A DNA stretch of 26,440 nucleotides from a virus. How positions within the stretch are numbered: the first letter of the stretch is position 1; each line of letters starts with the position of its first letter. Positions 6,924 to 26,440 of this stretch are shown in pieces. The stretch lies in the IMG/VR virus record IMGVR_UViG_3300035698_001324, positions 1-26,440 of that record. One strand, written 5' to 3'. The notes beneath the pieces are model-generated. The model did not search any database. It saw only the letters and a program-made list of their open reading frames with translations, and was not told the DNA's origin. The position numbers and the translations under genes are program-made.

Positions 6924-8078
6924 TTAGTTATCCTCGCTCGGAGTTAATGCTTTGCTTAACGCCACTCGTTCGTCCAACACAATATTATCATCGGCTGTGG
7001 TTGTATTATCATTATTTACGAAAGTATCACGTAATGTCAGACCGTCGCCCGGTGTCATTGACGTTCTTTCCGTATCCTCAATCTTAACCCATCGTGATCC
7101 GCTGTATCTAAATAATCGATTTGGTAAGTAATCCAAGCGAAGGAAATATTCGCCTTCGACGGGGTTACTTGAAAACTCAGTTCCACTAGTTATTGCGTAA
7201 CCATTGGGCGCAAGTCCGTCGCCAGTTAGATAACCGTCAGTCCATCCATTTCCTTGCGGCGTTGTTGCGGATTGTGGAACGCCATTGGGATCAGTATAAT
7301 CTTCTGGTTCACCGGGATTGCCTTCGCTATCACTATCCATAACATAGAACTGTGATGTGTCGTATCCAGATTGTGGAACTTCTGCTTCGGCAGCAGCAAT
7401 AACCGCTGCGTTATTTACCAACTCGGTATTATAAACACTAAGAAGGTCACGTAATGTTTGATCGCCGTTTCCGTCTACATCGGTTCCTTCCTGAATTTGA
7501 TTAAGAATAGCCGAATATTCCTGAGAATCAGTCATTGGTTTTACTTTAATACGCCATAGATGCGGCCACCACGTAGGCGAATACCCTTCCCCTGCACGGC
7601 TTGCATCATCTACAACATAAAACTTTTTTAGGGCAACAGGCACACCATCATTCAAATCCCAATAATCGATTAGATGCGGTAATTCCAAAACGTCACCGGG
7701 CAATATTTTACGTCCGATTCGTTCAACCATATCATTAATATGGAAAGTCAAATAAAGGTTATCGTTTGTGAGAAATGCACCAAATTGTTCATTGCTTAAA
7801 TCATTATCTTGAGTATTATAATGTCCACGTAGTTCATACACATCAGTCTCGTATTTGCGGTCACGATTTTCCAAGAATAATAAATCCTGAATACCGAGAA
7901 TGCCATCGGAAACTGGTTGTGATGGATCACTGGATGAGCCTTGATTATCGGCAGTACCCAATAACTTATGCACGAGCATAGATGTTCCGCCAATGGTAAA
8001 TTGTTCAGAAACCTGACGGTCAATGAAGCGATAATCGTGGTCGTGCTTACCATTTTGCCATAAACTTAAACGAGGCAT
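6924..8078 (-). CDS. Neck protein, gp14-like (putative)
   Basis: This 384-residue protein includes DRKYETDVYELRGHYNTQDN, FLTNDNLYLTFHINDMVERI, GRKILPGDVLELPHLIDYW, KKFYVVDDASRAGEG and WRIKVKPMTDSQEY. The order 'protein synthesis of a hinge strand - GDVLELP/GDLIYFP - KFYVV - LWRIK' resembles gp14 neck proteins of T4-like phages, and its position next to gp15 supports this. Residues ~240-384 carry an appended low-complexity region with an EGEYFLRLDYLPNRLFRY-SGSRW module. ATG 8078 has AAGGAG at good spacing. If not gp14, it is another neck or tail-completion structural protein. Confidence 0.6.
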   Translation of the reverse strand: MPRLSLWQNGKHDHDYRFIDRQVSEQFTIGGTSMLVHKLLGTADNQGSSSDPSQPVSDGILGIQDLLFLENRDRKYETDVYELRGHYNTQDNDLSNEQFGAFLTNDNLYLTFHINDMVERIGRKILPGDVLELPHLIDYWDLNDGVPVALKKFYVVDDASRAGEGYSPTWWPHLWRIKVKPMTDSQEYSAILNQIQEGTDVDGNGDQTLRDLLSVYNTELVNNAAVIAAAEAEVPQSGYDTSQFYVMDSDSEGNPGEPEDYTDPNGVPQSATTPQGNGWTDGYLTGDGLAPNGYAITSGTEFSSNPVEGEYFLRLDYLPNRLFRYSGSRWVKIEDTERTSMTPGDGLTLRDTFVNNDNTTTADDNIVLDERVALSKALTPSEDN

Positions 8079-8843: not shown

Positions 8844-9047
8844 ATGGATAAAGATAAGCAAAAGTTCTGGGATAATCTACGTGAACCCATTTTTGTACAT
8901 TATGACTGTCATACCTGCATGTGGAGTAATCGTCCTGATTGTGAAGATATTGATGGGACGGGATGTATGGGTTTGGAACATCCCAGAGACAACCCTAACA
9001 ATTTGTGGGAATGGGATGGTAAAACATACGAAGATGGATATGAATAA
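8844..9047 (+). CDS. KQxFW-box / CxxC / WxWDG small protein 1
   Basis: This 67-residue protein begins MDKDKQKFWDNLREP, has CHTC and further cysteines (CED, GCMG) in the middle, and ends LWEWDGKTYEDGYE. Family pattern: [D/K]KQxFWxxL..P, CxxC, two more Cys, WxWDG. The four cysteines could bind zinc. The upstream in-frame GTG at 8829 lies within the promoter, so ATG 8844 is the likely start, giving a leaderless message. Its end overlaps the next gene by 8 bases (ATGAATAA). I recognise no characterised homologue. Confidence 0.75.
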   Translation: MDKDKQKFWDNLREPIFVHYDCHTCMWSNRPDCEDIDGTGCMGLEHPRDNPNNLWEWDGKTYEDGYE

Positions 9048-9186
9048 AGATAAGCAACAGTTTTGGGAAACGTTAACGCAACCTAATAAAAAAGGTTGTT
9101 ACAACTGGATGGATGGATATGAATAAAGATAAGCAACAGTTTTGGGAAACGTTAACGCAACCTAATAAAAAAGGTTGTTACAACTG
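9033..9186 (+). repeat. 75-bp direct repeat, offset 79 bp
   Basis: Bases 9033-9107 and 9112-9186 are identical. They cover the 3' end of one small gene and the start of the next (ATGAATAAAGATAAGC through the codons for GCYNC/W). The duplication created the short intervening reading frame 9040-9126. Confidence 0.9.
9040..9126 (+). CDS. Truncated KQxFW small protein 2 (28 residues)
   Basis: The sequence is MNKDKQQFWETLTQPNKKGC plus YNWMDGYE. The first 23 residues equal the start of the next gene, after which the frame jumps directly to the family's last residues (DGYE), so an internal deletion has removed the cysteine region. It overlaps the preceding and following genes by 8 bases each. It may be a non-functional by-product of tandem duplication that merely keeps translational coupling. 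Confidence 0.5.
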   Translation: MNKDKQQFWETLTQPNKKGCYNWMDGYE

Positions 9187-22433: not shown

Positions 22434-24394
22434 TGAACTTTAATGACGTATATAAGAAGATTGCACTTCTAGAAACTGAAGGCGAAGGCTGTGAATGTGG
22501 ACCTGAATGTAAGTGCGGCGGTAAATGTGGCGGCAAATGCGGCGACGGTAACTGCCCTTGTGAATGCGGTGATAACACTGGTAATAAAACTAACGAATCC
22601 TATTTTGCAGACGAACGTAAGGGTTCGGGCAAATCGGGCGAAAAAGTTTCCGAAAACAGTAGTAAGATGCCACCAGAACTTGTGGAGTTGATTCAGAAGT
22701 ATAAGAAAGCACAGGAAACTCGTAGACAGTCATATCGTGAGCTAGAAAAAACTGGCAAGTATAGCGATGCTGAAATCGTTCAGCAGCTACCAAGCACGAA
22801 AATCAAGACTGCTATCAACCAACTATTGAGCAAATATTATAAGCAATACCCAGAACAATCACGTAAATGGGCAGAACAGATTCCAGAGTCAGCAAAGATG
22901 AAAAGAAAAAACAGCAAACTTTATGAAGAAGCTCAGATTAATCTATCTATTACGGATTTGTCGTCAACTGATGCAGAATCATTGTCGCAACTACTGCACC
23001 TTGCTGGTATTGCACAGACAAAAAGCGTTAGTTTTGACCAGCCAGTAGATGATATGATGGGCGATCCAATGGGTGATCCAATGGGTGGCGATGATATGGG
23101 AATGGAACCTATAGGTGGAGTTCCCGGCGATCTTCCACCAATGGGCGGAGATACTATCGGTGTTGATGATATGGCTGCACTTGATCAAGAACCAGAAATG
23201 GACATGGAACCAGAAATGGGCATGGAACCAGAAATGGGCATGGAACCAGAAATGGGCATGGAACCAGAAATTGGCGGTGATTATGAAGGTGGATTTGATG
23301 CCGAAATGGGTGCTGATGATGCTGGTATGGAGATTGAACCATTAGATGATTTGGGTCCAATGTCAGCAGACGATGATATGGCTGTTGCCAACACATGGGA
23401 TAATGATTCAGCTGAAATGGATGGAGAAATGGATAGTCCAGAAGAACTAGAAGATGATTTCAATATGAACGATCTTCTTCAACTTGCTGGAATGGAAAGA
23501 CTACCCGAAGATGAAAAAGTTTGGGATAATGAGCCAGACGAAGAAACATCAAGCGAATATAGTAATATGCCTAGCGGCGGACCAAATATGAAGAAGTCTA
23601 AGCGAGCTGGTGCACCACACGCAGTTAAAGTTGTAGAACGTGCAAACTCTTTGCGCAATAAACTAAAAAACTATAAGGATACATACACTATGAGCGATAT
23701 TAAAAAATTAATGGAAGCTATCGATACTCTTGAAGCGGAAGCTATTGAAGAACAAGAAACAACGATTGAAGAAGTTGAACTTGACGAAGCAGAAATGACC
23801 GATAAGGCAAAAGAAGCATGGTCCCGCAAACAATGGACCAAGAAAGATGATTCCGATTCCTATAGAACCAAAAATTCAGAAGAGGAAGAGGAAGATAAGC
23901 TTGAAGAAGCAGAAATGACCGATAAGCAAAAAGAGTTCTTCGGTAAGAAATCTGACAAAAAAGACGATTCCGATGATGATAAAGAAGAAGTAGACGAGGC
24001 ATTCGAAGAAGACCCTGACGGAATGGATGCGCAAAAACGCCAGTATGCACGCGATCATTCTAAAAAGTTAAGAGATCAAAAATCTAAAGAAGAAACTAAC
24101 GAATCTCATGAACAAAAGATTCTTGCCACTAATGGCCAGTATGTAGTTAGTTCTGGACCTTCATCTGACGGAAGCCGTATTACAACTGTTACATTTAGAG
24201 ATAACGTAATTTCTACTGGTGATTTTGATCGAGGAGCCGATGGCTGGTTTATGAATATTGATGGTCAGCAAGGACAAGAGTTCTTTTCTGATGCACAGGC
24301 AATGGCCGATTTTTTCGCACAAGGTGCTAAAATTGAAGAATCACATTACCATGCTATTCTAAATCAAATGAAAGCAACTGTTAATCATAAATAA
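22433..24394 (+). CDS. Large acidic scaffold-like protein with Cys-rich N-terminus
   Basis: This 653-residue protein is strongly acidic and rich in M, E, D and K. Residues 20-45 hold nine cysteines in CxC and CxxxC spacing (CECGPECKCGGKC and CPCEC), like metallothioneins. Two LLxLAG motifs occur (LLHLAGIAQ, LLQLAGMERL). Residues ~253-280 are repeats of EPEMGM, and residues ~430-560 contain repeated AEMTDKxKE blocks among acidic low-complexity sequence. The last ~90 residues look folded (GQYVVSSGPSSDGSRITTVT, FDRGADGWFMNIDGQQGQEF). Composition resembles T4 prohead core or scaffold proteins, but identity is unproven. It overlaps the previous stop by one base (TAATG) and is followed by a terminator. 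Confidence 0.65.
   Translation: MNFNDVYKKIALLETEGEGCECGPECKCGGKCGGKCGDGNCPCECGDNTGNKTNESYFADERKGSGKSGEKVSENSSKMPPELVELIQKYKKAQETRRQSYRELEKTGKYSDAEIVQQLPSTKIKTAINQLLSKYYKQYPEQSRKWAEQIPESAKMKRKNSKLYEEAQINLSITDLSSTDAESLSQLLHLAGIAQTKSVSFDQPVDDMMGDPMGDPMGGDDMGMEPIGGVPGDLPPMGGDTIGVDDMAALDQEPEMDMEPEMGMEPEMGMEPEMGMEPEIGGDYEGGFDAEMGADDAGMEIEPLDDLGPMSADDDMAVANTWDNDSAEMDGEMDSPEELEDDFNMNDLLQLAGMERLPEDEKVWDNEPDEETSSEYSNMPSGGPNMKKSKRAGAPHAVKVVERANSLRNKLKNYKDTYTMSDIKKLMEAIDTLEAEAIEEQETTIEEVELDEAEMTDKAKEAWSRKQWTKKDDSDSYRTKNSEEEEEDKLEEAEMTDKQKEFFGKKSDKKDDSDDDKEEVDEAFEEDPDGMDAQKRQYARDHSKKLRDQKSKEETNESHEQKILATNGQYVVSSGPSSDGSRITTVTFRDNVISTGDFDRGADGWFMNIDGQQGQEFFSDAQAMADFFAQGAKIEESHYHAILNQMKATVNHK
23189..23272 (+). 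repeat. 18-bp in-frame repeat (EPEMGM)
   Basis: About five units of ATGGAACCAGAAATGGGC or close variants encode EPEMDM and EPEMGM, ending in EPEIGG. The near-identity suggests replication slippage within the acidic protein. Confidence 0.85.
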
Positions 24395-24454: not shown

Positions 24455-25000
24455 TTAAACAGCTTTTTTATAAACCACCTTTCGGTATGGTTCAAGATAC
24501 TTAGCCCAACTAGGATGCTTAATCATCAGTGGCTTATCACGCATAGCGAACATCATCTGATGTGGATCAGGTTTATAAGGTTCACGAATAGGATGCATTT
24601 CCATACGGTCAGCCTTCTGTTCATTACACATCTTACATGCAGTGGCACAGTTTTCCCACGATGTTTTCCCACCCAACGCACGAGGACGCACGTGGTCAAT
24701 CGTTAGTTCGCCTTTTTCAAAAGTATCACTGCAATACTGACACTGATATAGATCACGCAAGAAAATATTATCCTTGCTGTATCTAACAGCCTTCTTGAAA
24801 TCAAAGTATTCAGTAGTGATAACCAACGCTGGTACAGGGAATGCAAGCTTTTGACTGTGCACAACCCAATCGTCATAGTGTGCTATTGTTTTGACACGAT
24901 CTAGGACGAGCAGTTTCATTACACGTTGCCACGAAATTGCGCTCAGTGGTATTACTGACATTGGCTCATATGATGCGTTAAGGACCAAACAATCGGTCAT
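24455..25000 (-). CDS. HNH endonuclease
   Basis: This 181-residue protein starts MTDCLVLNASYEPMSVIPLS, the usual beginning of a widespread HNH family in bacteria and phages. The nuclease domain has CQYCSDTFEKGELTIDHVRP, then RALGGKTSWENCATACKMCN and EQKADR: two CxxC zinc pairs, the catalytic-type DH and the central Asn, all intact. Such stand-alone HNH enzymes may act in packaging, homing or host DNA attack; which applies is unknown. It lies between the scaffold-like gene and the terminase block, on the opposite strand, with both a sigma70 promoter and a late motif upstream. AGGAG precedes ATG 25000. Confidence 0.88.
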   Translation of the reverse strand: MTDCLVLNASYEPMSVIPLSAISWQRVMKLLVLDRVKTIAHYDDWVVHSQKLAFPVPALVITTEYFDFKKAVRYSKDNIFLRDLYQCQYCSDTFEKGELTIDHVRPRALGGKTSWENCATACKMCNEQKADRMEMHPIREPYKPDPHQMMFAMRDKPLMIKHPSWAKYLEPYRKVVYKKAV

Positions 25001-25347: not shown

Positions 25348-26274
25348 ATGTCAGAAGAACTAGTTAAAAAACCAAATATGAAAATGGTATATACACGTGA
25401 GCAAATGATAGAGTTTGCAAAATGTGCTGATCCGATAACTGGTCATAAATATTTTCTGGAAAATTATTTCTATATTCAGCACCCTACCAAGGGTCAACTT
25501 AAATATTCACCGTTCGAGTTTCAAGAAAGACTGGTGGATACATATCACCACAATCGTTTTGCCATTGCGCTTATGCCACGACAGACGGGAAAATCGACAA
25601 CAGCAGCGGGATACCTATTATGGTTTGCTATGTTCAAGCCTGATAGTATTATTCTTGTAGCAGCACATAAACAATCAGGTGCAGCTGAGATTATGCAACG
25701 TGTGCGATACGCTTACGAACTATGTCCCGATTTCATTAGATGCGGCGCAACTACATATAACAAAAACTCATTGGAGTTTGATAACGGTTCAAGATTGGTG
25801 GCACAAGCTACGACAGAAAACACGGGTCGTGGTATGTCAATCACGTTATTATATCTAGACGAATTTGCATTCGTTCGTAATACAATCGCCAGTGAATTCT
25901 GGACTTCAATGCGTCCTACGTTAGCAACAGGTGGTAAATGTATTATCACATCAACGCCAAACTCCGATGAAGATCAGTTTGCCCTAGAATGGAAAATGGC
26001 AAACAAAACTGTAGATGATTTTGGAAATGATACGGGTATTGGAACGAATGGATTTAAAGCATTCAGATCATTCTGGCACGAACATCCAGACCGTGACCAA
26101 AAATGGGCAGACGACGAAGAACAGGCTATTGGTACTGAAAAATTCAGGCGGGAACACTGTTGCGTGGTACACTCTTCTTTGATAACTATTCAAGATGAAA
26201 ATGGTGCCACTAGTATTGTTGATATAGGAACACTGTATAAAAAATTTAGAGATGATGATTTCCTTGATAAATAA
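25348..26274 (+). CDS. Terminase large subunit, N-terminal part fused to split-intein fragment
   Basis: Residues 1-271 form the packaging ATPase: Walker A MPRQTGKST (76-84), Walker B LLYLDEFAF (167-175, D171/E172) and the coupling motif TSTP (201-204), with the Q-like FEFQERL upstream. T4 gp17 has about 610 residues; here the ATPase ends at GTEKFRREHC, just where the RNase H-fold nuclease domain should begin, and C272 starts an intein-like sequence that runs 37 residues to TAA 26272-26274. A functional terminase would therefore need trans-splicing to a C-terminal half encoded outside the window. AGGGAG precedes the ATG. The ATPase translocates DNA into the prohead. Confidence 0.9.
   Translation: MSEELVKKPNMKMVYTREQMIEFAKCADPITGHKYFLENYFYIQHPTKGQLKYSPFEFQERLVDTYHHNRFAIALMPRQTGKSTTAAGYLLWFAMFKPDSIILVAAHKQSGAAEIMQRVRYAYELCPDFIRCGATTYNKNSLEFDNGSRLVAQATTENTGRGMSITLLYLDEFAFVRNTIASEFWTSMRPTLATGGKCIITSTPNSDEDQFALEWKMANKTVDDFGNDTGIGTNGFKAFRSFWHEHPDRDQKWADDEEQAIGTEKFRREHCCVVHSSLITIQDENGATSIVDIGTLYKKFRDDDFLDK
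26161..26271 (+). other. N-terminal split-intein fragment (37 residues)
   Basis: The segment begins CVVHSSLITIQDENG and continues through SIVDIGTLYKKF to LDK. It fits intein block A (CxxxDT/SxLITIxD) followed by the I-x-x-LYK element, with Cys1 as the splicing nucleophile. The AceL-TerL atypical split intein, also found in a terminase, has a similarly short N-fragment (25 residues, beginning CVYGDT and ending around LYKRLA as I recall). An ordinary split intein has an N-fragment of about 90-100 residues. Blocks B, F and G are not in this frame and must be supplied in trans. Confidence 0.8.
26266..26274 (+). promoter_or_regulatory. Late-like motif GATAAATAA
   Basis: The motif overlaps the stop of the terminase N-part and lies 28 bases before ATG 26303, so the inserted gene may have its own late transcript. 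Confidence 0.4.
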
Positions 26275-26302
26275 GTATGAAACGATTTCAAGGAGAATAT
26301 AA

Positions 26303-26440
26303 ATGAGTGCTACATACGAAACATCAAAAATTGACAATGAAAAATATTGTAAATCAAATGGGCAATTCACGAAACATCTTAAACAACATAGTTATACATA
26401 TCAGTCCTATTATGAAGAATACATCACGGGTATTTCTCCA
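26303..26440 (+). CDS. Probable homing endonuclease, N-terminal part (runs off window)
   Basis: 46 codons are visible: MSATYETSKIDNEKYCKSNG, then QFTKHLKQHSYTYQSYYEEY and ITGISP. The pattern C..NG.FT.HL......TY.-YYE.Y resembles the N-terminus of free-standing phage homing endonucleases, where a small zinc-finger-like region precedes the nuclease. AAGGAGA lies six bases before the ATG. Its place directly after a split-intein N-fragment matches the 'fractured gene' arrangement (Dassa and co-workers), in which an endonuclease gene separates two intein halves. It does not encode the intein C-fragment in the visible part. The assignment rests mainly on context. Confidence 0.55.
   Translation, partial: MSATYETSKIDNEKYCKSNGQFTKHLKQHSYTYQSYYEEYITGISP

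Follow-up and report, generated by a model that had tools for sequence, protein, structure and literature searches.

The question raised by this locus is how a virus obtains an intact terminase when its terL gene breaks off directly after the ATPase half, as it does near the end of the IMG/VR virus fragment IMGVR_UViG_3300035698_001324 (positions 1 to 26,440; "the window" denotes this whole stretch of 26,440 nucleotides, which stops at 26440). We conclude that terL, which encodes the essential packaging motor, is very probably broken in two by a natural split intein of the atypical AceL/GOS-TerL type, that protein trans-splicing would join the two TerL halves, and that the DUF7487 nuclease encoded between them most likely spreads the element. 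The parts of the locus were located in the window and, beyond its end, in the contig IMGVR_UViG_3300022821_000015 (locus L003, 77,972 bp), which is 100% identical to window positions 4033-26440 and extends past 26440:

Window 25348-26160, plus strand: N-extein, the gp17-type ATPase half of TerL, residues 1-271, ending ...FRREHC; identified by Terminase_6N, PDB gp17 matches and a gapless alignment to uninterrupted TerL relatives.
Window 26161-26271, plus strand: N-terminal intein fragment (IntN), 37 residues (codons 272-308), Cys1 first; identified by a leave-out profile and by the match of the family profile to CatN (PDB 6dsl).
Window 26290-26295, plus strand: AAGGAG, the ribosome-binding site for the gene that follows, seen directly in the sequence.
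Window 26303-26440, plus strand: first 46 codons of a free-standing putative homing endonuclease; identified by identity to L003, DUF7487, PHROG and alignment.
L003 5956-6981: the complete nuclease gene (ORF2), 341 residues; DUF7487, PHROG homing endonuclease.
L003 6969-7304: C-terminal intein fragment (IntC), 112 residues, ending ...YYANTVLASN and followed by Cys+1.
L003 7305-8069: nuclease half of TerL; Terminase_6C, E=2.3e-7.

The open reading frame (ORF) at 25348-26274 encodes 308 residues and contains an ATPase domain of the T4 gp17 type (Pfam Terminase_6N, E=3.2e-17; PDB gp17, E about 1e-36). The last residue of the N-extein is Cys271 (26158-26160), after which the same frame continues with CVVHSSLITIQDENGATSIVDIGTLYKKFRDDDFLDK up to the stop codon at 26272-26274. 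Scored with a profile that was built from 30 IntN sequences and omitted the window sequence and its closest relative, this domain reached E=5.6e-7 against 0.33 for the runner-up among 710 reading-frame segments of at least 20 residues, so the match is not due to chance. Pfam scans gave no match for 26158-26271 (38 codons, around IntN) or for the first 46 codons of the nuclease gene, these stretches being too short. A separate ORF opens with the ATG at 26303, seven bases after the AAGGAG. An earlier note, made from the window alone, had correctly read the terminase ATPase domain, the intein N-terminus stopping 37 residues later and the separate gene with its own ribosome-binding site; the frame change that it placed after FRREHC does not exist, since 25348-26274 is one continuous frame.

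In L003 the ATPase half with its IntN is followed by the endonuclease-like gene, and this by an ORF (6969-8069) that encodes IntC and the TerL nuclease half. The 13-base overlap of its start with the nuclease stop hints at coupled translation. The exteins joined in silico show no gap across the junction in 72 of 79 related loci, all 72 of them uninterrupted, and the remaining seven have an intein there. Homing depends on empty sites, and these are thus common. The commonest uninterrupted junction is RREHG/CEFLIYDETLI (a slash marks the insertion site), and the joined L003 exteins read ...RREHC-CEF... (FRREHC-CEFIIHEETLISGLK). The earlier note had forecast an IntC of about 100 residues ending in HN, then Cys or Ser and the gp17 nuclease domain: the fragment, its final Asn, Cys+1 and the nuclease domain were all found, with SN in place of HN. 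The search for an intact terL elsewhere, which it had named as a refuting observation, revealed one TerL-N match and no second terL-like region in the 78-kb contig.

Family profiles were constructed from 43 IntC and 32 IntN relatives, and their best PDB matches are the two chains of 6dsl (CatN, E=2.6e-7; CatC, E=3.6e-17). This structure is Cat, a "consensus engineered intein" that was designed from GOS-TerL and AceL-TerL (2025 review, PMC11766414), and the resemblance to AceL-TerL noticed earlier is thus upheld. An AceL-like locus (L166), with a 24-residue IntN, CVAGDTIVETEKGKIKIEDLYKKM, aligns with Cat including the native flanks EFE/ and /CE; its insertion and that of the window occupy the same TerL position, which is therefore the published site of insertion. 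In the window virus this site reads REHC/C...N/CEF. As modelled by AlphaFold (predicted local distance difference test, pLDDT, 93.9), IntC has the HINT fold, and 50 of the 50 top PDB fold matches of the model are inteins or intein-like HINT domains, Cat and VidaL included.

The catalytic set of the intein consists of Cys1, Thr47 and His50 of block B, Asn112, and Cys+1. Cys1 is present in all 32 aligned IntN sequences; among the 43 IntC sequences, the block-B His and the final Asn112 are invariant and the block-B Thr is found in 42. The penultimate residue, in block G commonly though not by definition a His, is Ser in L003, and is Ser in 24, Lys in 17, Ala in one and His in one of the 43. Inteins without a penultimate His in block G are known, and we regard its absence as the mark of a subgroup, not as grounds for exclusion from the AceL/GOS-TerL inteins. 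A ratio of nonsynonymous to synonymous divergence (dN/dS) of about 0.06 between the IntC of L003 and that of a diverged virus (3300035034_000053, locus L077) argues that IntC is functional.

The anatomy, homology, insertion site, seamless joint, selection on IntC and exchange of nuclease cassettes (see below) are all demonstrated at the level of sequence comparison, and from them we infer that the IntN/IntC pair trans-splices in the cell. Two polypeptides would be made, one consisting of the TerL ATPase half and IntN, the other of IntC and the TerL nuclease half. The intein fragments would associate into a single HINT fold, which would excise itself by means of Cys1, the block-B Thr and His, Asn112 and Cys+1, leaving the halves joined as a normal TerL. 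The separately translated endonuclease would most likely cut terL alleles that are intein-free or differently occupied, and repair of the cut gene would copy the element in.

As to this endonuclease, ORF2 matches Pfam DUF7487 (E=3.4e-35) and the PHROG homing endonuclease (E=6e-8) and contains a four-Cys motif, and E223, D269, E280 and K282 (YYPDIFIPDENRIIEVKS; a PD...EVK motif) are invariant in nine nuclease sequences. Its fold matches are mostly of the PD-(D/E)XK type (RecE, PA endonuclease, Hjc, Vsr, PvuRts1I); they are individually weak (best E=0.03, none at or below 0.001), the full model is of moderate quality (pLDDT 73; predicted template modelling score 0.48), and a search of PDB sequences with the nuclease profile gave no match. 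The motif, the DUF7487 and PHROG matches and the predominance of PD-(D/E)XK folds indicate that ORF2 is probably a PD-(D/E)XK homing endonuclease. A free-standing putative homing endonuclease thus sits between the split halves in L003, in agreement with the earlier suggestion that the intervening gene may be the mobility enzyme; it would cleave DNA, home and so cause the spread of the element.

To place the intein in its family, we scanned with the IntC profile and kept the best 80 of 99 relatives. At this TerL site IntN measures 24-39 residues in 49 loci (those with both halves readable, some contigs having been fetched twice), so that a break after about 25-37 residues, described earlier as rare, is the rule here. 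The 45 distinct IntC sequences are accompanied by an HNH nuclease in 29 cases, by a DUF7487 nuclease in 11 and by no nuclease in five. The IntC tree separates the HNH from the DUF7487 type, with a single well-supported nuclease swap, in which L148 (DUF7487) stands beside L116 (HNH; support 99/94). The three-gene order of L003 recurs in L077 and many relatives; among the derivatives are continuous mini-inteins that occupy the same TerL site (L106, L154), split inteins lacking a nuclease (L096, L155) and, in L128 and L131, an IntN to which an HNH remnant is fused. When bacterial genomes were scanned with the IntC profile, 26 stretches fitted a pattern and none was confirmed, and a literature search for split TerL inteins in phage genomes found no paper. 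The window intein is a well-supported addition to the small known class of split TerL inteins in fractured genes.

Evidence that the nuclease moves came from the comparison of L003 with L077, a locus of a diverged virus that has this element too. Between the two loci, synonymous divergence (dS) is 1.49 in TerL-N and saturated in TerL-C, 0.50 in IntC codons 16-112, 0.02 in the nuclease and 0 in the first 15 IntC codons. On the left the near-identical tract is sharply bounded within IntN (identity is about 50% up to L003 position 5888 and 100% beyond it), and on the right it fades inside IntC, so that L077 combines an IntN unlike that of L003 with an IntC nearly identical to it. The contrast in dS together with these edges provides sequence evidence for a recent exchange of the nuclease cassette, with short intein edges, between two virus lineages. 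IMG metagenome 3300035698, a dataset from Ace Lake, Antarctica (PMC8542988), contains both lineages: its contig L088 is 100% identical to L003 across 4,036 bp, and its contig L092 is 99.7% identical to L077. Both contigs begin at one common point inside the shared nuclease gene, as would fit a repeat that also broke the window assembly. The window itself ends at an assembly break, where exactly 127 identical bases are common to its end and to IMGVR_UViG_3300023296_000483, as would be usual for adjacent contigs of an assembly made with k=127. The terL of L077 has two inteins, one split and one continuous, the latter located at Walker A of the TerL-N half (L077 691-2595; RQTGK/...HN/ST) and showing LAGLIDADG-like motifs by eye.

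A tentative extension, to which we give slightly less than even weight, is that the nuclease and both split edges form a mobile cassette that moves between split-intein alleles of co-resident viruses and produces functional hybrids in which IntN and IntC stem from different lineages, and that the large subgroup without the block-G His represents a separate variant of splicing. It may be, though this is somewhat less likely than not, that the endonuclease gene is an independently mobile, free-standing element inserted in the intein gene, with the intein only as its safe harbour. The L003/L077 tract, comprising the nuclease and only short intein flanks, would suit this, as would the presence of two unrelated nuclease families at one split point and the swap in L148, whereas a single scan, which recovered five loci and close relatives only, found no DUF7487 copy of close type outside terL inteins. 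Such an element would be compatible with trans-splicing of a fractured terL, not opposed to it.

Several points weigh against the trans-splicing intein and its homing nuclease. Replacement of the penultimate His by Ser could slow Asn cyclisation; the fold matches of the nuclease are individually weak and its model moderate; and, as the genome of the virus is not complete, an intact copy of terL could still lie outside the 78-kb contig. The missing His would also favor loss of splicing, with the ATPase and nuclease halves working as non-covalent subunits that keep their intein remnants, in the way that, according to passages of PMC3322345 and PMC10448857 citing the case, T4-like nrdA works as two polypeptides after a nuclease insertion. 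We consider this very unlikely, as the IntC is under strong purifying selection, the catalytic residues are retained in dozens of relatives, and the homologous Cat, AceL and GOS inteins splice in vitro (PMC11766414).

Joining at the RNA level by a group I or II intron, or by programmed frameshifting or read-through, is highly improbable. Introns do often interrupt phage genes that contain an endonuclease gene, but no Rfam match was found across the 10.9-kb locus, and the RNA intron was rejected accordingly; intein blocks lie exactly at both extein borders, and read-through by itself would leave IntN and IntC in place. That the intein is in truth continuous and the stop at 26272 a fault of assembly or sequencing, a reading which the earlier note listed among possible refutations and which is invited by a window end only 166 bases past that stop, at the assembly break, has a negligible chance and was rejected, as was a frameshift, since the independent contig L003 spans the region and reads the stop identically and the three-gene order is repeated in L077 and many relatives.

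Among other features of the window, a gene for an HNH endonuclease (24455-25000; Pfam HNH, E=1.4e-15), possibly a further mobile gene, lies a short way upstream of terL and on the minus strand, opposite to it. Arrays of a 69-bp repeat at 65-1029 encode NGNKQWFFNGERHREDGPAV-like units, and related sequence (72-78%) occurs in the L092 contig. A 79-bp unit is perfectly duplicated in tandem at 9033-9186, and 18-bp tandem repeats at 23189-23275 encode (EPEMGM)n within a 653-residue acidic protein.

Naturally split inteins with a short IntN are rare and valued as tools, because the short tag can be synthesized and ligated to a protein. The few published TerL examples are now joined by dozens of naturally diverged matched pairs, most of them without the penultimate His, and DUF7487 gains a probable function. 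L003 and L077 amount to a natural experiment: their intein and host gene diverged long ago, and the nuclease cassette has moved only recently. Further interest comes from how large the family is, from its loss of the block-G His, from the interchangeability of two nuclease families and from a cassette exchange caught in the act, as well as from viable cultured phages that should need trans-splicing for their packaging motor.

Compared with AceL/GOS-TerL and Cat, the window intein has the same TerL insertion site (with EFE/C...N/CEF flanks at that position in L166) and the same division into a short IntN and a long IntC, with 37 and 112 residues in ORFs separated by another gene, the published IntN having 25 and 37 residues. 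Ace Lake, given as the source of AceL, also holds the window virus. In contrast, the window IntC shares about 30% identity with the family's other subgroup and stands well apart from Cat, its penultimate residue is Ser instead of His, Cys1/Cys+1 stand against Ser1/Cys+1 in GOS, and the AceL-like contigs L166 and L167 form a separate branch. Fractured genes reportedly described by Dassa et al. in 2009 consist of a gene half with IntN, a separate endonuclease gene, and IntC with the other gene half, the nuclease being, by the same account, VSR-like. The layout here is the same, with a DUF7487 nuclease bearing a PD-(D/E)XK-like motif and a split near the intein N-terminus. VidaL (PDB 6vgv; profile E=3.9e-13) and gp41-1 (1.7e-13) have the HINT fold in common with the window intein and reside in host genes other than terL; the split position of gp41-1 is canonical.

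Split TerL inteins at the Walker-B site (Pseudomonas phage PspYZU05, Yersinia phage TG1, Krischvirus kaaroe) likewise have a short IntN ending the TerL-N ORF, a nuclease between or fused, and IntC with TerL-C, but occupy another TerL site, ...IYIDE/C...SHN/CAFI, and retain the penultimate His. In PspYZU05 and TG1 (L171, L173) a nuclease-like ORF of about 200 residues separates the halves, and the annotation gives just two terminase genes and one hypothetical protein. In Krischvirus kaaroe (L168 1757-3508) the TerL-N and IntN ORF continues into an endonuclease-like domain as one 583-residue protein, a layout shared by L169 and L170, and phage SRB7757 (L179 1709-3844) has a continuous mini-intein at the Walker-B site. 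In the cultured Campylobacter phage PC14 (KX236333.1), which has one TerL-N match in its genome, TerL-N with IntN (81038-81661, minus strand; L178 1483-2199) and IntC with TerL-C (107886-109214, plus strand; L174 3498-4826) lie about 26 kb apart. Cultured phages with terL split at the Walker-B site, PC14 being the most striking, support the view that phages can live with a two-piece terL.
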